This document shows positions 19,035-28,937 of a DNA stretch of 33,505 nucleotides, in pieces. The position numbers were made by a program, and so were the translations under genes. The notes below the pieces were generated by a model that ran no database searches, was not told the origin of the DNA, and was given only the letters and a program-made list of their open reading frames with translations. This DNA comes from Acidimicrobiales bacterium. Its GTDB lineage: Bacteria; Actinomycetota; Acidimicrobiia; Acidimicrobiales; RAAP-2. Location of the stretch: positions 1 through 33,505 of the forward strand of contig JADGOG010000017.1 in assembly GCA_017883065.1 (NCBI GenBank). Direction: 5' to 3'. Numbering within the stretch: the stretch's first letter is position 1; every line of letters begins with the position of its first letter.

Positions 19035-20414
19035 ATGTCCGATGCCGCCGGGGCCGTCTTCGTCGATCTCGACCGCACGCTCCTCCGTTCGGCCAGTGGC
19101 CCGGTGTTCCAGGCGGCGCTGGAGGCCGAGGGCGTGGTGGCCAAGGGACACCATCTCCCCGGCGATCAGTTGATGTACGGCTTCTACAACCGGTTCGGGG
19201 AGTCGGTGCCCTTCATGGGGCTGGCCCGGGCCGCCGCTCCCTTCATGCGGAACCGCTCGGTCAAGGCCACCCGTCAGGCCGGGAAGCGGGCGGTGGGCCC
19301 CCTGATGGACCTGGTCCAGCCCTGGGCCCTCGAACGGCTGGCCGCCCACAGGGACGAAGGCATGCCTCTGGTCCTGGCCACCACGTCGCCCATGGACCTG
19401 GTGTCGCCCCTGGCCAAGGCGCTCGGATTCGATGCGCTCATCGCCACCCGCTACGGGCGTGCGGGCGGGGTCTTCACCGGTCGGATCGAGGGCGGGTTCG
19501 TCTGGGGTGTGGGCAAGCGCGCCGCCGTGGGTCAGTGGGCGGCCGAAAACGGCATCGACCTGCAGGCATCCCATGTCTACTCCGACAGCTTCTTCGACCT
19601 TCCGTTGTTCCTGTCGGTCGGGCATCCGCACCCGGTCAACGCCGATCCCCGGCTGTTGGCGGTGGCCCTGGCCCGCCGCTGGCCCCTCGATCACTGGGAC
19701 CGTCCTCCGGGGGTCCCCTCGCTGGTGGGCCTCGAGCCCTACCACCTGCTCCGGCACCTGTTCCGGCCCGAGGCGTTCCCCTACGCCCGATTCACCATCG
19801 AGGGGATGGACCACATCCCGTCTTCGGGTCCGGTGCTGCTGGCCAGCAACCACCGCAGCTACTTCGACGTGGCCGCCCTAGGTCTGGTGGCCGCCCGCCT
19901 GAAGCGACCGGTGCGGTTCCTGGGCAAACAGGAGGTGTTCGACGCGCCGGTGGTCGGCCAGCTGGCCCGGGCACTCGGCGGCATCCCGGTCGACCGGGGC
20001 AGCGGCTCGGGCGACTCCATGCGTCGTGCCGCCGCAGCCCTTCGGGCCGGCGAGGTGGTCATCGTGCTCCCGCAGGGAACCATCCCCCGGGGAGTCAGCT
20101 TCTTCGATCCGGTGCTCCACGGCCGGACCGGGACGGCCCGCCTGGCGGCGGAGACCGGGGCACCGGTCGTTCCCATCGGATTGTGGGGCACCGAGAGGGT
20201 ATGGCCCCGCTCGTCCAAGGTGCCGACCATGGCCACGCTCCATCCACCCCGGGTCACGGTGACCGTGGGCCCACCGGTTCCACTCGGGCTCGAGGACGCG
20301 GTTGCCGACACGGCGACGCTGATGGGGGCCATCGTGGGCCTGTTGCCGGACGAGGCGCGGGTGGAGAGGCTCCCCACCGAAGAGGACCTGGCCCGCACCC
20401 GACCGTCGGCGTGA
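19035..20414 (+). CDS. HAD-IB phosphatase / 1-acylglycerol-3-phosphate acyltransferase fusion
   Basis: Protein of 459 aa with two domains. Residues 5-215 are a HAD subfamily IB phosphatase: motif I 'FVDLDRTLLR' (D11, D13), motif II 'LATTSP' (T116), motif III Lys161 in 'GVGKRAAV', motif IV 'YSDSFFDLPLF' (D184, D188); all key residues are present. Residues about 245-440 are a PlsC acyltransferase: 'SNHRSYFD' (H273-x4-D278), 'GGIPVDRGSG', 'LPQGTIPRG' (345-353) and 'VVPIGLWGTE'. The usual FPEGT motif has Gln instead of Glu here. M. tuberculosis Rv2483c has the same fusion. It probably makes phosphatidic acid from lysophosphatidate; the role of the HAD domain is not known. It overlaps murT by GTGA. 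Confidence 0.88.
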   Translation: MSDAAGAVFVDLDRTLLRSASGPVFQAALEAEGVVAKGHHLPGDQLMYGFYNRFGESVPFMGLARAAAPFMRNRSVKATRQAGKRAVGPLMDLVQPWALERLAAHRDEGMPLVLATTSPMDLVSPLAKALGFDALIATRYGRAGGVFTGRIEGGFVWGVGKRAAVGQWAAENGIDLQASHVYSDSFFDLPLFLSVGHPHPVNADPRLLAVALARRWPLDHWDRPPGVPSLVGLEPYHLLRHLFRPEAFPYARFTIEGMDHIPSSGPVLLASNHRSYFDVAALGLVAARLKRPVRFLGKQEVFDAPVVGQLARALGGIPVDRGSGSGDSMRRAAAALRAGEVVIVLPQGTIPRGVSFFDPVLHGRTGTARLAAETGAPVVPIGLWGTERVWPRSSKVPTMATLHPPRVTVTVGPPVPLGLEDAVADTATLMGAIVGLLPDEARVERLPTEEDLARTRPSA

Positions 20415-21778
20415 CCGTCTCCACCAGCCCGTCCACCGAACCCCCGCCCCGCCCCCTGTCCCTGCGGTCGTCGGTCGCCGTCGGGTCGCTCCGACTGGTC
20501 AACCGGCTGTCGCGGCGCCTGGGCCGGGGCAGCGGCACCGTCGCCGGTGGCCGGGTGGGACTGGCTATCGATCCCCGCCTGTTGACCGTGCTGGCCGGTG
20601 GCCTGCAGGTCGCCCTGGTCAGCGGTACGAACGGGAAGACCACCACCACCCGGATGCTGGCGGCGGCGCTCGCCGGACCCGACGACCCACCCGTGGCCAG
20701 CAACCAGACCGGGGCCAACATGCCCGCCGGGCACGTGGCGGCCCTGGTCGAGTCCCCGGCGGCAGTGGTGTGCGTGCTGGAGGTGGACGAGGGCTACCTC
20801 GGTCGGGTGATCGAGGAGGCCCGTCCCCGGGTGGTGGTCCTGCTCAACCTGTCGCGGGACCAATTGGACCGGATCGCCGAGGTGCGCATGCTGGTGGATC
20901 GGTGGCGTACCGCCCTGTCGGGTTTGCCGGCAGGCACCGGATCGGCAGGGGCTCCGACCGTGGTGGTGGCCAACGCAGACGATCCGATGGTGGCCTGGGC
21001 GGCCATGACGGCTCCCGAGGTGGTCTGGGTGGGCGCCGGCCAGGTCTGGCGCAACGACGCGGTGGGCTGCCCGGCGTGCGGCGGGCGGATCGAATTCGCG
21101 GATCAGGGCGGGTGGGCGTGCGACCGGTGCACGTTCCGGCGTCCGGACCGGAACGCCTGGCTGGACGGCACGACCCTGGTCATGGCCGACGGGACCCGTC
21201 TTGCCGTCGACATCGCCCTGCCCGGGCAGTTCAACCGGGCCAATGCGGCGATGGCGGCCATGGCCGCACCGATCATGGGCACCCACGCCGGGTACCCGAC
21301 GGGGGAAGGTACTCCCCTGACGACGGCCGTGGCCCTCGAACGGGTGGCCTCGGTCGACGAGGTGGCCGGGCGATTCGCCGCGACGGTGCACCGCGGTCAT
21401 CCCGTCCGCCTCCTGTTGGCCAAGAACCCCGCCGGGTGGACGGCCATCTTCGACCTCCTGGACGAGACCAGTCCGCCGGAGACGCCGTTGGTCCTGTCCA
21501 TCAACGCCCGCATCGCGGACGGCCTCGACCCCAGCTGGCTCTGGGACGTCCCCTTCGAACGGTTGGTCGCTCGTACCGTGGTGGTCACCGGGGACCGGCG
21601 GCGCGATCTGGACGTCCGGCTCCGCTACGCCGAGGTGGCCTGCACGGTGGTCGACGACCCGGTGGCCGCGGTGGAGCGCGCCGTCTCCCTCGCCGCCCCG
21701 GCCGACGGGGCATCGTCACCGGCGGTCGACTTCCTGGGCAACTACACCGCCTTCGCCGAACTGCGGGGCCGGCTGTGA
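20411..21778 (+). CDS. murT: Lipid II isoglutaminyl synthase, Mur-ligase subunit MurT
   Basis: Protein of 455 aa starting with a GTG that overlaps the previous stop (GTGA). It has the Mur ligase ATP-binding loop 'VSGTNGKTTTTR' (G72-T78) and the MurT-specific zinc ribbon inserted in the middle domain, CPAC (C220, C223) and CDRC (C237, C240). The C-terminal DUF1727 domain contains 'LLLAKNPAGWTAIFDLL'. With GatD it amidates the alpha-carboxyl of D-Glu in lipid II to D-isoglutamine, using ATP and glutamine-derived ammonia, on the cytoplasmic side of the membrane. The next gene is gatD, with a GTGA overlap, so the two subunits are made together. Confidence 0.95.
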   Translation: MTVSTSPSTEPPPRPLSLRSSVAVGSLRLVNRLSRRLGRGSGTVAGGRVGLAIDPRLLTVLAGGLQVALVSGTNGKTTTTRMLAAALAGPDDPPVASNQTGANMPAGHVAALVESPAAVVCVLEVDEGYLGRVIEEARPRVVVLLNLSRDQLDRIAEVRMLVDRWRTALSGLPAGTGSAGAPTVVVANADDPMVAWAAMTAPEVVWVGAGQVWRNDAVGCPACGGRIEFADQGGWACDRCTFRRPDRNAWLDGTTLVMADGTRLAVDIALPGQFNRANAAMAAMAAPIMGTHAGYPTGEGTPLTTAVALERVASVDEVAGRFAATVHRGHPVRLLLAKNPAGWTAIFDLLDETSPPETPLVLSINARIADGLDPSWLWDVPFERLVARTVVVTGDRRRDLDVRLRYAEVACTVVDDPVAAVERAVSLAAPADGASSPAVDFLGNYTAFAELRGRL

Positions 21779-22584
21779 CCGCGGCTTCGCCGCGGTCGGC
21801 ACTGGCCATCGCCGTGGTCTTCCCCGACCTGCTCGGCACCTACGGTGACGGCGGGAACGGCTTGGTCCTGGCCCGCCGGGCGGCGTGGAGAGGTATCGAC
21901 GTCGACCTGGTCCAGGCCGACTCGGGTCGACCGCTGCCCTCCGCCGACCTGTACTGCATCGGCGGCGGGGAGGACGGTCCCCAGGTGCGGGCGGCCACCG
22001 CGCTCATCGCCGAGGGGACGATCCGACGGTCCTTCGACCAGGGTGCAGTGGTGCTGGGCGTCTGCGCCGGGTACCAACTGCTCGGCCAGCGCTTCCCCGA
22101 CAGCGCCGACCGCTCCCAGGACGGCCTCGGCCTCCTGGATGTGACCACACGCAAGGGCACAGGACCGCGGGCGGTGGGCGAGGTGATCGCCGAGAGCCTG
22201 CCCGAGGCACCCCGTCTGCCTGGTGGTCGGATCCTGCCCCCACTGACCGGGTTCGAGAACCATGGCGGGGTGACCGTGCTCGGGCCGGCGGCCCGCCCGG
22301 TCGGACGCGTGGTGGCCGGTGTCGGCAACGGCGGGGGTGACGGCACCGAGGGGGCGTGGAGCGACCGGGTGGTGGGGACCTATCTGCACGGACCGCTCCT
22401 GGCCCGGAACCCCGACCTGGCCGACCTGTTGCTCGGATGGGCGATCGCACCCGGGGGATCCGACCGACCGCTCGACCCGTTGGACGATGCCGCCGAGCTC
22501 GCCCTGCGCACCGAGCGGCTGACCTCGGTCCCGCGCACCGGCCGGGCCGGGCTGGTGCGCCGGCTGATCGGGCGTCGGGCCTGA
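21775..22584 (+). CDS. gatD: Lipid II isoglutaminyl synthase, glutaminase subunit GatD
   Basis: Protein of 269 aa; the GTG overlaps the murT stop (GTGA). It is a class I glutamine amidotransferase of the CobB/CobQ type. The nucleophile is Cys97 in 'VLGVCAGYQLLG' and the catalytic His is His205 in 'VGTYLHGPLLARNPDLAD', matching C94 and H189 of S. aureus GatD. The N-terminus 'VVFPDLLGTYGDGGNGLVLARRAAWRGIDVDLV' is characteristic. It hydrolyses glutamine and channels ammonia to MurT. The C-terminal extension of about 40 residues is Arg-rich. It ends 25 bp from the convergent acyltransferase gene. Confidence 0.95.
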   Translation: MTAASPRSALAIAVVFPDLLGTYGDGGNGLVLARRAAWRGIDVDLVQADSGRPLPSADLYCIGGGEDGPQVRAATALIAEGTIRRSFDQGAVVLGVCAGYQLLGQRFPDSADRSQDGLGLLDVTTRKGTGPRAVGEVIAESLPEAPRLPGGRILPPLTGFENHGGVTVLGPAARPVGRVVAGVGNGGGDGTEGAWSDRVVGTYLHGPLLARNPDLADLLLGWAIAPGGSDRPLDPLDDAAELALRTERLTSVPRTGRAGLVRRLIGRRA

Positions 22585-22609: not shown

Positions 22610-23656
22610 TCACGTGGAGCGCCGTGGCCACCGGTTCCCGTCGTCGGTCTCCCGGAGCTCGGGAGCCGGCGAGAGCATCCATGACCGCCGCCAGGCGGCG
22701 ACATCGGGACCCTGCAGCGGGGGAGTGGTCCCCCGGGCCGCCTGCTTGCGGGCTGTCCACCAGTCGGTGGAGGCCTCGTCGGCCATGGTGGCCACGGCTG
22801 TCTCGATGCGGGCGCCGAACGAGCGTGCGTCCTCGCCCTCCTCCGGCCACAAGGGCGTGCCGAAGGTCACGGTGGTCCGGGCCCTCCGGACTCCCTTGCC
22901 GCCCTTGGGCAAGAGGTGGCGGGTGCCGTCGAGGTGCACGGGCACCACCGGCCGCCGGGTCCTCGAGGCCAGGTAGGCGGCACCTCCCCGGAAGGTCTGG
23001 GCCCATCCGTCCGGGGAGCGCCCACCCTCGGGGAAGATCACCAGGTTCCAGTCGTCATCGAGCAAGGAGGCGGCCAGGTCGGCCGATCGGCGGTTCACCT
23101 TGGTCCGCTCGATGGGGATGGCGGCCAGAAGGAACGACCAGGCGTCGGCTTTCCACCGTCGATCGAAGAAGTAGTCGGCGGCCGCAGCCACCACCGTCCG
23201 ATGGCGGAACCGGAGGGGAAGGCAGCTCAACAGGAGCGGCGTGTCGGCGTGACTGGCATGGTTGGAGGCGAAGATGACCGGGCCCTCCAACCCGATCAGC
23301 GATTCGTCGCCGCGGATCTGGGGCGAGGCGATCACCCGGGCCAGGGGCCTGGTCACGTTGTCGAGCACCAGGGCCCGGGCCAGGCGCACCGGATACCGAC
23401 GGGACCACTCGGTGTCGTAGTGGACGCCCAGCTCGGGGGTGGGGGCGGGCCGGGGCACCGACTCGGGCCAGCTGGGGGCGGCCAGCGGGAACCGTGCCCG
23501 ACCGGCCCGGGATCCGAGGGCGGACGGGGTGAGGCGGTGCAGCCAGGTGGAGGGTCCTGGTGGACCTCCGGTGCGGTCCGACCGACCCAGGGCGGCGTCG
23601 GTCCTGACCGACCGCCACCCACGCAGCGAGTTGGACGAGCCCGAGGTCCGGCTCAT
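22610..23656 (-). CDS. PlsC-like lysophospholipid acyltransferase, last gene of the FAR-LarA operon
   Basis: Protein of 348 aa. The ATG overlaps the stop of the LarA-like gene (ATGA). A Pro/Arg-rich N-terminus of about 75 residues precedes the PlsC domain: 'ASNHASHADTP' (H133-x4-D138), 'IPIERTKVNRRS', 'IFPEGGRSPDG' (208-216) and 'VVPVHLDGTRHLLPKGG'. All four acyltransferase motifs are present. It transfers an acyl group from acyl-CoA or acyl-ACP to an acceptor, typically lysophosphatidate. Being the last gene of an operon with a fatty acyl-CoA reductase, it may act on an unusual acceptor such as an alcohol or ether-type lipid; that is inference. It differs from the HAD-PlsC protein encoded at 19035-20414. 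Confidence 0.85.
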   Translation of the reverse strand: MSRTSGSSNSLRGWRSVRTDAALGRSDRTGGPPGPSTWLHRLTPSALGSRAGRARFPLAAPSWPESVPRPAPTPELGVHYDTEWSRRYPVRLARALVLDNVTRPLARVIASPQIRGDESLIGLEGPVIFASNHASHADTPLLLSCLPLRFRHRTVVAAAADYFFDRRWKADAWSFLLAAIPIERTKVNRRSADLAASLLDDDWNLVIFPEGGRSPDGWAQTFRGGAAYLASRTRRPVVPVHLDGTRHLLPKGGKGVRRARTTVTFGTPLWPEEGEDARSFGARIETAVATMADEASTDWWTARKQAARGTTPPLQGPDVAAWRRSWMLSPAPELRETDDGNRWPRRST

Positions 23657-25242
23657 TGCACGTCGGCCATCAGGATCGGCGGTGCGTGGAGATGGGTGAG
23701 CGACGGCGAGGGCCCCACCACGTCGGCCGCCATCTCCAGGGCGTCGGCCAGGGTGGACGCCGCACGGAAGCCGAGCCGGTGCACGGCGGCGGGGTCACCC
23801 CCGACGATGATCACCGCACCGAGGTGCTGGAGGGCGTGCGCGCACCAGTACCACATGTAGAACGGATGGACCCCGTGGTAGGCGTGCCCGGTCCGGTAGA
23901 GGTGGATGTACCAGGGATCGGTGGCGAAGGACTCCTCGAACCGGTCGGCCACCTCGATCGGATCGGTGGTCTGGCTGAGCACCTGTTCGAAGAAGTCGAT
24001 GTAGCTCGGGTGGTGCACCGGGTTGAACTCCCAGGGCGTGGGGTGGGTCATGATCAGCACCCCGCCCTCGCGCACCAGCGGCTTGCCCCGGTACATGTTG
24101 AACAGGTAGCCGAGCCCGAGGCAGGCCACCAGGATCGGATTGAGGACCGAATTCACGTTGTAGGGGCTGATATAGGGGAGCCCCATGGTCAAGATGTCGG
24201 TCTGACCCTCGACCACCACGCCCTGTTGGGCCCATACGTTGTCGGTGGTCAGCTTGTGGACCGCCTCCACCTCGCCGGCCTGGACCGAGGTCATCCGGTG
24301 GGGGGCCTTCACCGAGTGGAAGATCTGGCGGGCGTAGCGGGCAGGGGTGCGGTCGAGGGCCTTGGACGCGGCCAGGTAGCCGAGCCGGTCCTTGGCCTTC
24401 CACTCCCACTCCCGCTTCTGGAGGAACTTGAAGGCGGTGGGGAACGTGTCGTTGTTGAGGGTGGTCTCGATCTGGAAGACCTTGACCCCGCTCTCGGCGA
24501 TGAGCCGGCCCATCCTCCAGTTGGACGAGTGGAGCTCGGAGCGGTGCTGGTCCATGAACGAGCGGCTCTGCTGCATGGTCTGCGGATTGTGGTGATGACG
24601 GAGGCTCTTGTAGCTGGAGAGGCCGGTGGCCACGCTCTTGTGCCCGCCGTCCATGGCCACCAGGTTGATGTTGACGTAGACCAGCAGGTCGCTCTCGGCG
24701 GCCCGCTTGTTGATCTCGACGTCCTCCCCCTCTTCGGTCTGTCCGAGGTGGACCAGGGCGTCGGGGTCCTCGGCGTCGTGCTGGGTCAACAGTCCGTTGG
24801 GGGCGAAGGCGTCGTAGATCCGATCGCCCAGCGCATGGCGCAGCTCCGGTTCGGTCATCCGCCGGTGGAGGGCCAGGGCCACGATGAGGGCAACGTCGTC
24901 CACGCCGGCCTCGGCGGCCATGTCCAGCACCTGCTCGATGACCAGTTGGCGGATGTCTGGTCGCTCCATCGGGGGCAGAGGCAGGGAGATGTCGTCGAAG
25001 GCGATGGTCAGTTGCATCCCGGGGCGGAGCTGTTCGGGAAGCGGATCCTGGTCGCCCACCGGGTGGGTGAGCGCGGCACGGATGGCGGCGGAGGGGTCCT
25101 TCAGCGGGTCGATGGGCTCAGGGGCGTAGATGACCCGGCTGCCCTCGGGCAGCTTCTCGAGGCTGAACCTCTCGCCGTGCCAGAACAGGGTCGGTGGCGT
25201 GGAGCGGTCGACGTCGAGCACGAATCCGGGCCTGGGGCTCAT
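23653..25242 (-). CDS. Divergent LarA-superfamily (DUF2088) protein
   Basis: Protein of 529 aa, about 100 longer than lactate racemase LarA. AAGGAAG precedes the ATG, which overlaps the ADH stop as ATGA. The LarA N-terminal domain is recognised by 'AFDDISLPLP', 'VALALHRRMTEPELRHALG' and 'NINLVAMDGGHKSVATGLSSYKSLRHHHNP'. His126, Lys202 and His218 correspond to LarA His108, Lys184 (tether of the nickel-pincer nucleotide) and His200 (nickel ligand), with identical spacings of 76 and 16 residues. The position of the second catalytic His (LarA 174) is Ile192, and the D-x-T-R-P motif with the substrate Arg reads DISLP. It probably binds the nickel-pincer cofactor and acts on a 2-hydroxy compound or alcohol, but is unlikely to be a simple lactate racemase. 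larB, larC and larE are not in the window. Confidence 0.75.
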   Translation of the reverse strand: MSPRPGFVLDVDRSTPPTLFWHGERFSLEKLPEGSRVIYAPEPIDPLKDPSAAIRAALTHPVGDQDPLPEQLRPGMQLTIAFDDISLPLPPMERPDIRQLVIEQVLDMAAEAGVDDVALIVALALHRRMTEPELRHALGDRIYDAFAPNGLLTQHDAEDPDALVHLGQTEEGEDVEINKRAAESDLLVYVNINLVAMDGGHKSVATGLSSYKSLRHHHNPQTMQQSRSFMDQHRSELHSSNWRMGRLIAESGVKVFQIETTLNNDTFPTAFKFLQKREWEWKAKDRLGYLAASKALDRTPARYARQIFHSVKAPHRMTSVQAGEVEAVHKLTTDNVWAQQGVVVEGQTDILTMGLPYISPYNVNSVLNPILVACLGLGYLFNMYRGKPLVREGGVLIMTHPTPWEFNPVHHPSYIDFFEQVLSQTTDPIEVADRFEESFATDPWYIHLYRTGHAYHGVHPFYMWYWCAHALQHLGAVIIVGGDPAAVHRLGFRAASTLADALEMAADVVGPSPSLTHLHAPPILMADVQ

Positions 25243-26474
25243 CGGATGCTTCCTTTCGGTTTACGGAGATCGAAGACCACCTTGACCGCGCCCCGGCGAC
25301 CGGCGGCGCCGGCGTGGGCGATGGCCTCCTCGTAGCGCTCGAGCGGGTAGGCGGCGGAGACCAGCGAGCCGAGGCCGGCGTCGGCCACCACCTCGAGGGC
25401 CAGCTCGAAGGTGCGACGCGGCGTGGTCCCCGAGGTCGGTCGTTCGTCGCCGTAGGCGTAGGCGCCGACCAGGGTGAGCTCCCGGTGCCAGAGGGGGGCC
25501 AGATCGACGGCCACCTTGCCCGGCATGCCCACCAGCACCACCTTGCCCCGGGGCCGCACCATGGACAGGGCCTGGGTGAGGGACTCCGAGCTCCCCACGC
25601 AGTCGAAGACCACGTCGGCCCCACCGGTCAGGCGGCCGGCGAGCACCAGGGACCCGGCCTGTCGCCGGATGGCCCGGGCCAACTGGTCGGGGGAGACCAC
25701 GGTGTCCGCACCCAGGGCGGCGGCCAATTCTCGTTGATGTGGGTGCTTGGCCCCGACCATCACCGTGCAGCCGGAGTCCGGTCGGCTGATGCGGTCGAGG
25801 GCGGCCACCGTGGCCAGGCCGAGCGTCCCGGCCCCGAGCACGGCCACCAGGTCGTCGGGCGCGATGCCGGCGGAGAGGACGGCATGGACGGCGCACGCGG
25901 TGGGCTCGACGATCACCGCATCCTCGTCCGAGAGGGCGTCGGGGACCGCGTGGAGCTGGGAGCTGTGGGCGACCAGAGGAGCGGTGGACCACCCCCCGCC
26001 GGTATCGGTGCAGAACCCGGTCTGCAGCCCGGGTTCGAGGGTGCCGAAGGCGATGTTGCCGCACAGGCCGGTGTGGCCTAGAGAGCACTGGGGACAGGGC
26101 GGGAGGATGTGCCGGGGCGCGCAGCCGAGCACCGGTTCGATCACCGCCCGGGTGCCGGGCTCGAGCCGGCGACCGGCATGATCGAGACCGCCGTCGTCGA
26201 GCACGCCGACCACCTCGTGTCCAGGAACGAAGGGGAAGCTGACCATGTCCTCGAAGTAGCGCGAGCTGCGTCCGTCCAGCGTGGCCAGATCGGATCCGCA
26301 GATCCCCGACAGCAGCGGGCGCAAGCGGAACCAGTCCTCGGCGGGCAGCTCGGGTGCGGTGGCATCGAGGAGTTGGAGGGGGCCGATGCCCGCTCCGCGC
26401 CCCGAACCGAACACCGAGGCCACCCGCGACGCGGCGAAGCGGGCGATGTTCCGCTCGAAGACCAGCGCCTTCAT
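25239..26474 (-). CDS. Zinc-dependent alcohol dehydrogenase (MDR family)
   Basis: Protein of 411 aa; the ATG overlaps the stop of the upstream reductase gene (ATGA). Medium-chain dehydrogenase motifs: catalytic zinc ligands Cys59 ('SGICGSDLATLDG'), His86-Glu87 ('VPGHEVVG') and Glu190 ('IVEPTACAVHAVL'); structural zinc cysteines C118, C127, C130 and C138 ('CPQCSLGHTGLC'); and the Rossmann loop 'VLGAGTLGL' (about 212-220). A roughly 30-residue N-terminal extension ('ARFAASRVASVFGSGRGAG') sits just before the usual start of the fold. It oxidises an alcohol or reduces an aldehyde/ketone with NAD(P). With an acyl-CoA reductase upstream, a fatty aldehyde/alcohol or a hydroxylated lipid is a reasonable substrate class, by inference. 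Confidence 0.88.
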   Translation of the reverse strand: MKALVFERNIARFAASRVASVFGSGRGAGIGPLQLLDATAPELPAEDWFRLRPLLSGICGSDLATLDGRSSRYFEDMVSFPFVPGHEVVGVLDDGGLDHAGRRLEPGTRAVIEPVLGCAPRHILPPCPQCSLGHTGLCGNIAFGTLEPGLQTGFCTDTGGGWSTAPLVAHSSQLHAVPDALSDEDAVIVEPTACAVHAVLSAGIAPDDLVAVLGAGTLGLATVAALDRISRPDSGCTVMVGAKHPHQRELAAALGADTVVSPDQLARAIRRQAGSLVLAGRLTGGADVVFDCVGSSESLTQALSMVRPRGKVVLVGMPGKVAVDLAPLWHRELTLVGAYAYGDERPTSGTTPRRTFELALEVVADAGLGSLVSAAYPLERYEEAIAHAGAAGRRGAVKVVFDLRKPKGSIR

Positions 26475-28915
26475 CGTGCGCCCTCGCCGGCCGATCGTCG
26501 GGCCGCACCGGCCAGGGCCGCAGCGCTGGTCCGTCCTCGCCCGAGCGAGCCCCGGCGGTCGAACGGCCCCAGGGGAAGCAGCGGAGAGGAGCCTCCTTCG
26601 GCCTTGTGCCAGTGCTCCACGTGCCAGCCGCGCCGCCGGGCGATGGCGGCCAGCTTGGCCTCCGGATTGACGGCCACCGGAAAGCCCACCGCCTCGAGCA
26701 TGGGGAGGTCGCTGGCCGAATCGGCGTAGGCCATCGACTCGCCGAGGTCGAGCCCTTCGGCCTCGGCGTACTCCTCGAGCACCAGGGCGCGGGCTTCCCC
26801 GATCGGGGGGAGCACGTCCAGGCGACCGGTGAACATCCCGTCCTGTTCGCCCAGTCGGGCGCAGACGATGTCGTCGAAGAGGGGTCGGAGCGGTTCGACC
26901 ACCAGGTCGAGGGCGCCGGTGATCAGGATGGTGCGATGGCCGAGGGCCCGGTGCTCGCGGACCCGGGCGATGCCGGCGGGGAACGACTTGGCCAGCAACA
27001 GGTCGTAGAAGAGCTCCCACCCGTCGTCTCGCAGGCGATCCACCGGCGCACCCTCGTAGCGACGGTAGAAGGAGCGGAGGAAGTCCCCGCGGTCGCGGCG
27101 GTCGAGGAGGAGCAGGGAGGGGGCCTCACGCATCAGGTCGGCCACGAAGGCCGCCCGCTCGGCCGGAGGCAGGTGACGGGAGGCCAGCCAGGCGTAGGAG
27201 TCGACCACGTTGGAGGCGATGAGGGTGTTCTCCAGGTCGAATGCAGCCAGATGGCGATCGGGGGAGAGGATGTTCTTGCGAGCCCGGTCGGCCCGGTTGG
27301 GCTTGGTCGACTTGCCCGCTGAGGTCTTGACCCGGGCGTGCTCGATGATGGAGGGGAGGTGGATCTCCCGGACGTAGGTGTCCCAGTCGACGGCGGCGGG
27401 GTCGAGGCAGAAGGTCCGGCGGTCGTCATCGTCCATCCGGTCCCACAGGGCGAGGAGCCGATCCACCCGGTAGAGGGCCTCGGTCTCGGTGTAGGCCCCG
27501 TACAGCTCGACGTACCCGAGTGCGCGGTCGGCCAGCAGGTGCTGCTCCTCGAGGGCGGCCATCCAGGCGGCCTGCTTGCCCCGGATCGGCAGTGACCCGA
27601 CCACCTTCTCAGCCAGATCCATGGCCTTGGAGGCACGGGACAACTGACGTTGTACCCGGCCGCGACCGGGGAACGACCACTCCGGCACCACGATGGGCTG
27701 GCCATCTGCGTCGTACAGCGGGTGCTCGGTGAACCAGGCGGTGACCAGCTCGACCAGGCGCCCGTAGCGGAACGGATTCCGTACCCCGGAGGCCACGTGG
27801 TACACCGAGGGACCCTGGTACTCCTGGGGCGGGGTGAGCAGCGCCTCGCCGGACACGACGATGATGGCCGCCACCACCAGATCCACCGGGATCACGTCGG
27901 TCACGCCTTCGGGCACGCCGGGGAACTCGCGCAGCAGCCCCCGGGCGTAGGAGATGATGATCGGCTCGGCCATCCGGAAGCCGCGGATCCACCCGGGCCG
28001 GGGCTCGGCCAGCGCCGACTCGATGATCGAGGGCCGGACGATGGTCATGGGGACGGTGTCGGCGTACTGGGCCACCAGAGCCCGTTCGCCGAGCGCCTTG
28101 GTGTACGGGTAGGCATCGGGCCAACCGAGCGACTGGGCCCTGGCCTGCCCCACCACCACCATCTGTTTCTTGACCCAGTCCTCGCGGATCCTTTCGGCCC
28201 GCTCGGCCAACAGGTGCAGTCCGGCACCACCAAGCTCGCTGCGGGCCTGCTTGGTGAACCCGGTGAGGCGCTCGGGACGCCGGGAGTCGGCATCGAGGTC
28301 GCTGCGTTGGCGACGTGCCGCGTCCACCTCGTCACGCCAGTCGACGGAGACGGTGAACCGATTCCCGTCGAGCAGCTCCTCTTTGGCCTCGCCCTGGTGG
28401 GTGCCGGCCACGTACGCGGTGGACACGGGCACCAGGTGGACCGGTCCGGTCCGGCCCTGCTCGGCGGCCAGGCGCCTGGCCGACTCCACCTCGGCGGCCA
28501 CTCTCGAGGGGCCGAGCAGGTTGACTTCGACGGCGGAGTCGAGGGGAGAGTCGAAGCTGACAGCGGCGGCCGAGTGGATGACGATGTCGCACTCCGACAG
28601 TCGCTGCCGTCCGTCGTCGTCGAGCCCGAGCCCGTCGGTGGCCACATCGCCGGCCACCGCCTCGACCCGGGCGGCCATCTCGGAGTCGAACCGGTCGCCC
28701 AACTCCTGGCGCAGCCGGTCGAAGCAGTCGTTCTTGATGATCTCCTTGGTGGCCCGTTGCAGGGGGGTGGCCCGCCGGCCCGGACGGATCAACAGGACGA
28801 CCTGGCTGTCGGGAACGCTACGGAGAATGCGTTCGACCAGGGCTGTTCCCAAAAAGCCGGTGGCGCCGGTGATGAAGAACCGCCGGCCGGCAAGGGCGTC
28901 ACGAACGCGCGTCAC
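26471..28915 (-). CDS. Fatty acyl-CoA reductase fused to a HAD-IB-like domain
   Basis: Protein of 814 aa from GTG 28915. Residues 1-400 are an extended short-chain dehydrogenase of the FAR/thioester-reductase type: 'FFITGATGFLGTALVERIL' (NADP loop), 'VHLVPVSTAYVAG' and 'YPYTKALGE' (Y269-x3-K273). A FAR_C ('sterile')-like segment follows at about 460-530 ('DWDTYVREIHLPSIIEH'). Residues about 555-765 form a HAD-IB domain: 'AAFDLENTLIASN', 'ILITGALD' and 'YADSASDLPML'. In motif I the second Asp is Glu562, and the motif III Lys position reads 'PPIGEAR' (Glu707), so phosphatase activity is uncertain. The FAR part would reduce acyl-CoA to aldehyde or alcohol. First gene of a four-gene coupled operon; divergent tetR gene 23 bp away. 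Confidence 0.85.
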   Translation of the reverse strand: MTRVRDALAGRRFFITGATGFLGTALVERILRSVPDSQVVLLIRPGRRATPLQRATKEIIKNDCFDRLRQELGDRFDSEMAARVEAVAGDVATDGLGLDDDGRQRLSECDIVIHSAAAVSFDSPLDSAVEVNLLGPSRVAAEVESARRLAAEQGRTGPVHLVPVSTAYVAGTHQGEAKEELLDGNRFTVSVDWRDEVDAARRQRSDLDADSRRPERLTGFTKQARSELGGAGLHLLAERAERIREDWVKKQMVVVGQARAQSLGWPDAYPYTKALGERALVAQYADTVPMTIVRPSIIESALAEPRPGWIRGFRMAEPIIISYARGLLREFPGVPEGVTDVIPVDLVVAAIIVVSGEALLTPPQEYQGPSVYHVASGVRNPFRYGRLVELVTAWFTEHPLYDADGQPIVVPEWSFPGRGRVQRQLSRASKAMDLAEKVVGSLPIRGKQAAWMAALEEQHLLADRALGYVELYGAYTETEALYRVDRLLALWDRMDDDDRRTFCLDPAAVDWDTYVREIHLPSIIEHARVKTSAGKSTKPNRADRARKNILSPDRHLAAFDLENTLIASNVVDSYAWLASRHLPPAERAAFVADLMREAPSLLLLDRRDRGDFLRSFYRRYEGAPVDRLRDDGWELFYDLLLAKSFPAGIARVREHRALGHRTILITGALDLVVEPLRPLFDDIVCARLGEQDGMFTGRLDVLPPIGEARALVLEEYAEAEGLDLGESMAYADSASDLPMLEAVGFPVAVNPEAKLAAIARRRGWHVEHWHKAEGGSSPLLPLGPFDRRGSLGRGRTSAAALAGAARRSAGEGAR

Positions 28916-28925
28916 CGGATCTGTC

Positions 28926-28937
28926 TACCATATGGTA
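28926..28937. promoter_or_regulatory. Palindromic divergent promoter/operator between the FAR operon and tetR
   Basis: TACCATATGGTA is a perfect 12-bp palindrome in the 23-bp gap. Read on the + strand, TACCAT (28926-28931) is a -10 box 7 nt before the GTG of tetR (28939). Read on the minus strand, TACCAT (28937-28932) is a -10 box that would give the FAR operon a leader of about 10 nt. One symmetric site thus holds both -10 boxes and is a natural TetR operator. Confidence 0.65.

Follow-up and report, generated by a model that had tools for sequence, protein, structure and literature searches.

What does a relative of lactate racemase do among the genes of lipid enzymes? The question is raised by an operon in a stretch of 33,505 nucleotides (hereafter, the window; contig JADGOG010000017.1 of assembly GCA_017883065.1) from an Acidimicrobiales bacterium. 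Its four genes encode, in order of transcription, a fatty acyl-CoA reductase fused to a HAD-type domain (FAR-HAD), a zinc-dependent MDR dehydrogenase (ADH), a LarA-like protein of the LarAH14/15/16 family (hereafter LarAH14), predicted to depend on the nickel-pincer nucleotide (NPN) cofactor, and a PlsC-type acyltransferase; a tetR gene lies divergently beside them (Table 1). We tentatively propose, at somewhat less than an even chance, that the four genes constitute one locally regulated lipid-alcohol pathway, in which the nickel-pincer enzyme, having one catalytic histidine, would catalyse hydride transfer, its substrate being neutral and apolar. A plausible, unproven role of such an operon is to make or break down an alcohol-, ether- or hydroxy-lipid.

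Conservation of the Gene Set

A set of 198 genomes from the class was searched for LarA and FAR-HAD (threshold E <= 1e-60 for the latter). LarA matched in 39 of them, strongly in 38 and weakly in one (G142), and FAR-HAD was found in exactly the same 38 genomes as the strong LarA matches and in none of the other 160. Gene order was followed in three sets of loci: the window together with 38 loci from the order and class (37 of the 39 possess a nearly full LarA, the other two being fragments of a single gene that spans two contigs), 80 loci in named genomes, the best of 569 confirmed places, and 30 Actinomycetota loci from other families with 55–64% LarA identity, chosen by hand among 61 such genomes. 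Forty loci were fetched for the last set; the 30 with LarA of the strong group were counted and the ten more distant ones left out. All locus and row counts include the window, and three contigs belong to both the named set and the order and class set and are counted twice.

For synteny, at least 4.2 kb upstream of LarA had to be available, and FAR and ADH had to lie within 7 kb on the strand of LarA. Such an arrangement is present at 118 of the 121 loci with enough flank (30/32 in order and class, 63/63 in named genomes, 25/26 in other families), and PlsC is the next gene after LarA at 126 of 136 loci (37/37, 70/71 and 19/28, respectively). The preliminary description of the window, which had pointed to an operon of these four genes and suggested a neighbourhood search, thus concerned a real, conserved unit, and the linkage of the four genes is well supported. 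At one synteny miss, in the other-family set (L208), ADH is located 7.7 kb upstream, and FAR lies farther out, cut off by the end of the fetched sequence. Chance juxtaposition of the genes is ruled out by synteny and co-occurrence; spread of LarA by plasmids was also considered and rejected, yielding nine partial, weak matches only. In a LarA tree of 42 rows, the order and one family (f67) each fall on one side of a branch; pairwise distances of LarA and FAR correlate at 0.84 (95 loci), and among the three proteins compared, mean divergence is smallest for LarA, at 0.30 (0.41 and 0.46 for the others).

Family f67 departs from the common layout in its acyltransferase, PlsC being absent from its eight loci. 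A PlsY gene (PF02660) stands just upstream of FAR-HAD at all seven loci covering this stretch (L209–L215; L208 does not cover it), and it is the only PlsY in four of the five f67 genomes tested; a search for PlsY in the window's genome found none. Across the loci, FAR-HAD and LarA make up the core, ADH is nearly constant, and an acyltransferase of glycerolipid type is provided as either PlsC or PlsY. LarA relatives lacking FAR (40–43% identity) have other neighbours: family III CoA-transferases at two of the five loci inspected (L217 and L218), a glycyl radical enzyme (L219), a 3-hydroxyisobutyrate dehydrogenase-like protein (L220) and an SDR-type epimerase (L216). These fit hydroxy-acid or diol chemistry in the wider LarA group. 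Clustering of the neighbourhoods, in which part of the neighbours were annotated, revealed no gene recurring widely across families beyond the operon genes and tetR.

The closest named matches of the window come from Acidimicrobiales metagenome-assembled genomes. Three loci carry Acidimicrobiales-like operons under unexpected names (L136, labelled Bifidobacterium breve, and L091 and L141, labelled Acidobacteriota), suggesting wrong labels or contamination in those metagenome-assembled genomes.

Residues of the LarA-like Protein

The LarA-like protein matches the NCBIfam family NF052592 (LarAH14/15/16) over its full length (residues 7–529), scoring 903.5 bits against a cut-off of 740. Judging by its name, this family probably corresponds to groups 14–16 of PMC7583248. 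Residues were compared with lactate racemase LarA of Lactiplantibacillus plantarum and counted over 148 LarA rows. The N-domain is kept, and the equivalents of Asp72 (D84), the catalytic His108 (H126), the cofactor lysine Lys184 (K202) and the nickel ligand His200 (H218) are present in 148/148 rows. The second catalytic histidine, His174, is lost: its position (N193) is Asn in 147 rows and Cys in one. Also lost is the carboxylate-binding Arg75, whose equivalent, position 87, is occupied by Leu (140), Ile (6) or Cys (2) and never by Arg or Lys. The protein therefore has the Lys184–His200 pair characteristic of the NPN-dependent LarA superfamily, and lacks both marks of the two-histidine 2-hydroxyacid racemases, the complete His108–His174 pair and Arg75. 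Loss of this arginine makes a plain 2-hydroxy acid racemase less likely. The preliminary description had named a LarA-like, putative nickel-pincer enzyme; it had noted neither the orphan subgroup without the second histidine to which the protein belongs nor the loss of the arginine.

The two positions following the lost histidine are mostly apolar, Leu194 in 131/148 and Val195 in 141/148 rows; according to PMC7583248, the lactate enzyme has an apolar loop here, whereas malate and gluconate enzymes have a polar one. Together with the missing arginine, this loop suggests that the substrate of LarAH14 is probably neutral and aliphatic, a free hydroxy acid being less likely than, for instance, a 2-hydroxyaldehyde, a ketol or a diol.

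Groups 14 and 15 are described as lacking the His174 equivalent, and structures of two single-histidine LarAs have been reported with no substrate found (PMC12611868). Among solved chains, these two, from Blautia wexlerae and Streptococcus plurextorum (9q2u, 9q3j), come closest to the window protein. They share with it Asn at the second-histidine position, the Lys and His cofactor ligands and, by alignment, Tyr361, Asn368 and His459; across the rows, Tyr361 and Asn368 are found in 148/148 and His456/His459 in 147/148. His306 of the single-histidine structure corresponds to Pro360 of the window protein. The solved proteins possess Lys at the arginine position and sugar-gene neighbours, whereas the window LarA has Leu and lipid-gene neighbours.

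Nickel Cofactor Genes

The window's genome, 94.9% complete, yielded a single Lar_N protein. The preliminary description had proposed to look in the host for larB, larC and larE, and all three are present (Table 1). Within the class, LarC occurs in 35 of the 38 genomes with LarAH14 versus 2 of the 160 without it (G004 and G090). A closer set of 41 relatives comprises 37 genomes with LarAH14 (in G222 split over two contigs), with LarC in 35, LarB over the cut-off in 34 and LarE over the cut-off in 35; among the four lacking LarAH14, LarC and LarB are found in none and LarE over the cut-off in one. A second, weak LarA match is present in G193, G209, G210 and G211. The residues and the co-occurrence of LarC support the prediction of a nickel-pincer enzyme in a lipid operon.

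Four genomes that are 95–98% complete (G075, G087, G177 and G227) carry LarAH14 with no LarC match; the operon of G075 (L060) also lacks ADH.

Partner Enzymes

Pfam assigns the four proteins to the families given in the preliminary description, recognizing NAD_binding_4 (2.4e-58) and HAD (6.1e-26) in the fusion, ADH_N and ADH_zinc_N in the dehydrogenase, Lar_N in the LarA-like protein and Acyltransferase in PlsC. The FAR part matches the fatty acyl-CoA reductase 7eoz (1.9e-60) over residues 5–534 and the whole length of 7eoz. The YxxxK motif, common to both, is present in 124/124 rows, and the Rossmann GxxGxxG together with YxxxK is kept in 123–124 of 124; the window protein differs from 7eoz in being additionally fused to a HAD-IB domain. 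This domain scores 98.7 bits against TIGR01490 (cut-off 98.3). Its motif I nucleophile D560 and motif IV D732/D736 are found in 124/124 rows, and R709 is invariant. At the second acidic position of motif I, 110 rows have Glu and 14 have Asp, the latter rows coming without exception from other families; with Glu in most rows, phosphatase activity is likely, not certain. At L198, FAR and HAD match as separate pieces (4–505 and 514–781), reflecting a frameshift or a natural split.

The nearest solved relatives of ADH are 4ej6, ketose reductase 1e3j, and xylitol and sorbitol dehydrogenases; in NCBIfam, scyllo-inosose 3-dehydrogenase scores best, though far under the cut-off. Residues C59, H86 and E87 are present in 136/136 rows. 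Polyol-type dehydrogenases usually act on secondary alcohols. PlsC matches 5kym (6.3e-10), and the HxxxxD and [FY]PEG motifs are kept in 117 of 119 rows, the remaining two being gapped.

Regulation

A divergent tetR match accompanies the operon at 24/32 loci of the order and class, 43/56 named loci and, where the fetched flank is long enough, 3/26 loci of other families (one of the three weak). In other families, 8/30 loci instead have a TetR match (35–44% identity) behind the operon and in its orientation, approximately 2.5–3 kb past the LarA start (L188, L190, L192, L194, L198, L199, L203 and L205). The tetR/FAR-HAD intergenic region of the window contains the palindrome TACCATATGGTA. Sites resembling it at 10 or more of 12 positions are present in 66 of 71 divergent promoters versus 17 of 1200 random 250-bp windows, some of the promoter stretches being longer than these windows. 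TetR probably acts at TACCANNTGGTA, the predicted operator. A TetR gene beside a local palindrome is a common arrangement in catabolic and detoxification operons.

Exact TACCANNTGGTA occurs once in the window's genome, at this intergenic site. Over the 41 relatives, it was counted 62 times versus 41 for the backwards control (hand sums), so most sites outside the operon may be background. Eight further places were inspected; four of them (L260, L261, L263 and L266) have a different TetR-like gene alongside, recognized by eye, and no extra pathway gene was found at the eight. At L261 and L263, this gene is divergent from what we take to be a small SRPBCC-like protein. A wider TetR regulon through TACCANNTGGTA was rejected on account of the single copy in the window's genome and the near-background count in relatives.

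Proposed Pathway and Alternatives

The proposed pathway would proceed as follows. Based on its family, the FAR domain would reduce a long-chain acyl-CoA to an aldehyde or alcohol. NPN-carrying LarAH14 would then abstract a hydride from a single enantiomer of a hydroxylated chain and put it back elsewhere in that molecule, with H126 as the sole histidine serving as acid/base. The polyol-type dehydrogenase could interconvert a secondary alcohol and a ketone, and the HAD domain and PlsC (PlsY in one family) might incorporate the product into a polar, acylated lipid. The gene linkage, the joint occurrence with cofactor-synthesis genes, the conserved catalytic and cofactor residues and the conserved palindrome are what the analysis shows; the substrate, the product and the direction of the pathway are what we infer here. 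A more specific version, in which LarAH14 performs a new nickel-pincer reaction, an intramolecular hydride shift between a long-chain 2-hydroxyaldehyde and a 1-hydroxy-2-ketone, and so makes undescribed ketol- or diol-based membrane lipids across Actinomycetota, is a long shot. The reaction would resemble an aldose-ketose isomerisation, but with a lipid as substrate.

Several points speak against the lipid-alcohol pathway. ADH is absent at two loci (L056 and L060) and PlsC is not the next gene at ten, namely eight f67 loci, L138 (PlsC 9 kb away) and L187; hence neither is indispensable. FAR is found upstream of none of the ten more distant LarA loci (25–43% identity), and Fisher statistics of co-occurrence ignore shared ancestry. 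LarC has no match in three class genomes carrying LarAH14 (G075, G087 and G177). The exceptions among the relatives include G206 and G209, which are 71–76% complete, and also G227, 96% complete and without LarB and LarC. In a draw across the phylum, the LarAH14/15/16 family is over the cut-off in 85 of 396 genomes, and LarC was hand-counted in 75 of these 85 carriers but also in 158 of the 311 other genomes, a picture blurred by the presence of other LarAs. The residue mapping relies on pairwise phmmer alignments, in which a gap of one residue adjoins the second histidine. NCBIfam names NF052592 a hydroxyacid isomerase, which conflicts with a non-acid substrate, and the nearest solved LarA relatives were associated by their authors with carbohydrate and not with lipid metabolism (PMC12611868). 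No published reaction of the LarAH14/15/16 group was found in the literature covered. A LarAH14 from Frankia displayed none of seven tested activities (PMC7583248); this fits a different substrate and also an inactive or badly loaded enzyme.

An acid substrate is retained if LarAH14 racemises 2-hydroxy fatty acids in one direction only, FAR reduces 2-hydroxyacyl-CoA to 1,2-diols and PlsC acylates these, giving long-chain-diol membrane lipids. The characterised LarAs in the accessible parts of PMC7583248 and PMC11770544 use 2-hydroxy acids, in agreement with the NCBIfam name, and the CoA-transferases adjoining two of the five FAR-less relatives point the same way; Thermomicrobium roseum, as far as the available text of PMC2615216 goes, possesses long-chain 1,2-diol membranes of unclarified synthesis. 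With Leu, Ile or Cys at the carboxylate-arginine position of every LarA row, and with no Acidimicrobiales diol lipid among the literature matches listed, which were narrow, we regard this route as unlikely. The carbohydrate connection of the nearest solved LarAs (PMC12611868) can be accommodated by glycolipid synthesis, with a sugar or polyol phosphate head group as the target of LarAH14, the polyol-type dehydrogenase and HAD, and with a lipid tail provided by FAR and PlsC. The kinship of ADH with ketose reductase, sorbitol and xylitol dehydrogenases, and its sub-threshold match to scyllo-inosose 3-dehydrogenase, would suit such a head group. The mainly Leu/Val pair at LarA 194/195, as opposed to polar pairs in the malate and gluconate enzymes (PMC7583248), and the lack of any widely recurring neighbour besides the operon and tetR among the neighbours annotated make this quite unlikely.

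The operon could also run in the opposite sense, degrading or detoxifying imported fatty aldehydes, alcohols or hydroxy-lipids upon TetR induction. A TetR gene beside a conserved local palindrome would agree with this, and the direction of the dehydrogenase is not fixed by its sequence; we nevertheless hold it improbable, because FARs of such type are reductive and PlsC and PlsY are biosynthetic in known pathways. Finally, LarA might be a structural or degenerate relative without a nickel cofactor, in an ordinary fatty-alcohol or wax-ester operon. The loss of the second catalytic histidine and the carboxylate-binding arginine, the carriers without LarC, and the decision of PMC7583248 to put group 16 aside as possibly not NPN-dependent would be explained in this way. 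The cofactor lysine and the nickel histidine, however, are kept in 148/148 rows, LarA diverges least of the three proteins compared, and LarB, LarC and LarE are kept with LarAH14, mostly in genomes with no other LarA match; we rank a cofactor-less LarA as very improbable because these cofactor genes are retained.

Comparison with Known Systems

Each of the enzyme families is known; none of the literature matches listed reported their conserved combination or placed this LarA group in a lipid context. The preliminary description had known of no characterised pathway with this combination, and none emerged among those matches either, supplements and subscription papers lying outside their scope. 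The operon adds a conserved lipid-enzyme context to the LarAH14/15/16 family, a context that may already stand in Table S1 of PMC7583248, which is outside the literature covered. A Phytophthora enzyme called LarAH15 is a gluconate epimerase according to the accessible part of PMC11770544, apparently under another numbering.

The myxobacterial elb ether-lipid operon, as presented in the available text of PMC9131029, likewise unites a FAR domain, a HAD protein and an acyltransferase domain. It adds acyl-CoA synthetase and acyl carrier protein (ACP) domains in another architecture, and LarA is not mentioned in that portion of the paper. Acyl-CoA synthetase, ACP and AGPS-type domains were not detected by Pfam in the four operon proteins; the genome was not searched for ether-lipid enzymes. 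In the PlsC-HAD neutral-lipid clusters of Actinomycetota (PMC10351704), HAD is linked to a glycerolipid acyltransferase, as here, and the term "lactate racemase" does not occur in the text; the HAD-PlsC fusion of the window is separate from the operon.

For single-histidine LarAs, the papers of 2020 and 2025 name no substrate and propose other hydride chemistry or one-way racemization. The context conserved at 118 of 121 loci and the kept cofactor genes direct the substrate search to lipid alcohols and aldehydes, and supply partner enzymes for reconstitution. In many Actinomycetota families the gene set is kept together; its probable task is to produce or modify an unusual lipid of the fatty alcohol type. 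If the proposed pathway is true, it would place a nickel-pincer enzyme in lipid metabolism, for which there is no precedent among the literature matches listed, and it might be the source of a membrane or storage lipid that has gone unrecognised in many uncultured Actinomycetota.

Operon Layout and Neighbouring Genes

The coordinates of the open reading frames (ORFs) place all four genes on the minus strand and bear out the 4-bp overlaps that the preliminary description had reported at all three junctions; the divergent tetR gene it mentioned is likewise an ORF with a TetR_N match. ADH starts at an ATG within a longer ORF of the same frame. The third-position GC content agrees with coding in the operon frames, ADH being scored inside its longer ORF. 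Across the loci, 4-bp overlaps occur at 96/136 FAR–ADH, 57/145 ADH–LarA and 57/137 LarA–PlsC junctions; a single overlap of this kind is ordinary.

Table 1. Operon, promoter region and nickel cofactor genes of the window's genome (positions without prefix refer to the window)
Feature	Position	Strand	Description
FAR-HAD fusion, 814 aa	26471..28915	minus	fatty acyl-CoA reductase ~5-534 and HAD-IB phosphatase-like domain ~556-754
Zinc-dependent MDR dehydrogenase (ADH), 411 aa	25239..26474	minus	polyol/sorbitol dehydrogenase-like; Pfam ADH_N and ADH_zinc_N
LarAH14/15/16-family protein, 529 aa	23653..25242	minus	predicted nickel-pincer nucleotide enzyme, single catalytic histidine; Pfam Lar_N
PlsC-type acyltransferase, 348 aa	22610..23656	minus	Pfam Acyltransferase 7.7e-18
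TetR-family regulator, 232 aa	28939..29637	plus	Pfam TetR_N; divergent from operon
Palindrome TACCATATGGTA	28926..28937	unstranded	predicted TetR operator between tetR and FAR-HAD starts
larC	C215:7024-8202		window's genome
larB	C215:8256-8966		window's genome; two pieces of one frame, adjoins larC
larE	C106:6127-6903		window's genome; separate contig from larB/larC

A HAD-PlsC fusion, with both domains recognized by Pfam, is encoded at 19035–20414 on the plus strand, approximately 2.2 kb past the 3′ end of the operon. Several relatives also show a further HAD match 3–10 kb past LarA on the opposite strand. Directly convergent with the operon, at approximately 20480–22584 on the plus strand, are a ligase gene of uncertain start, which we take to be MurT-like, and a GATase_3 amidotransferase gene. 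Pairs of MurT-like ligase and GATase_3 amidotransferase have a role in lipid II amidation.

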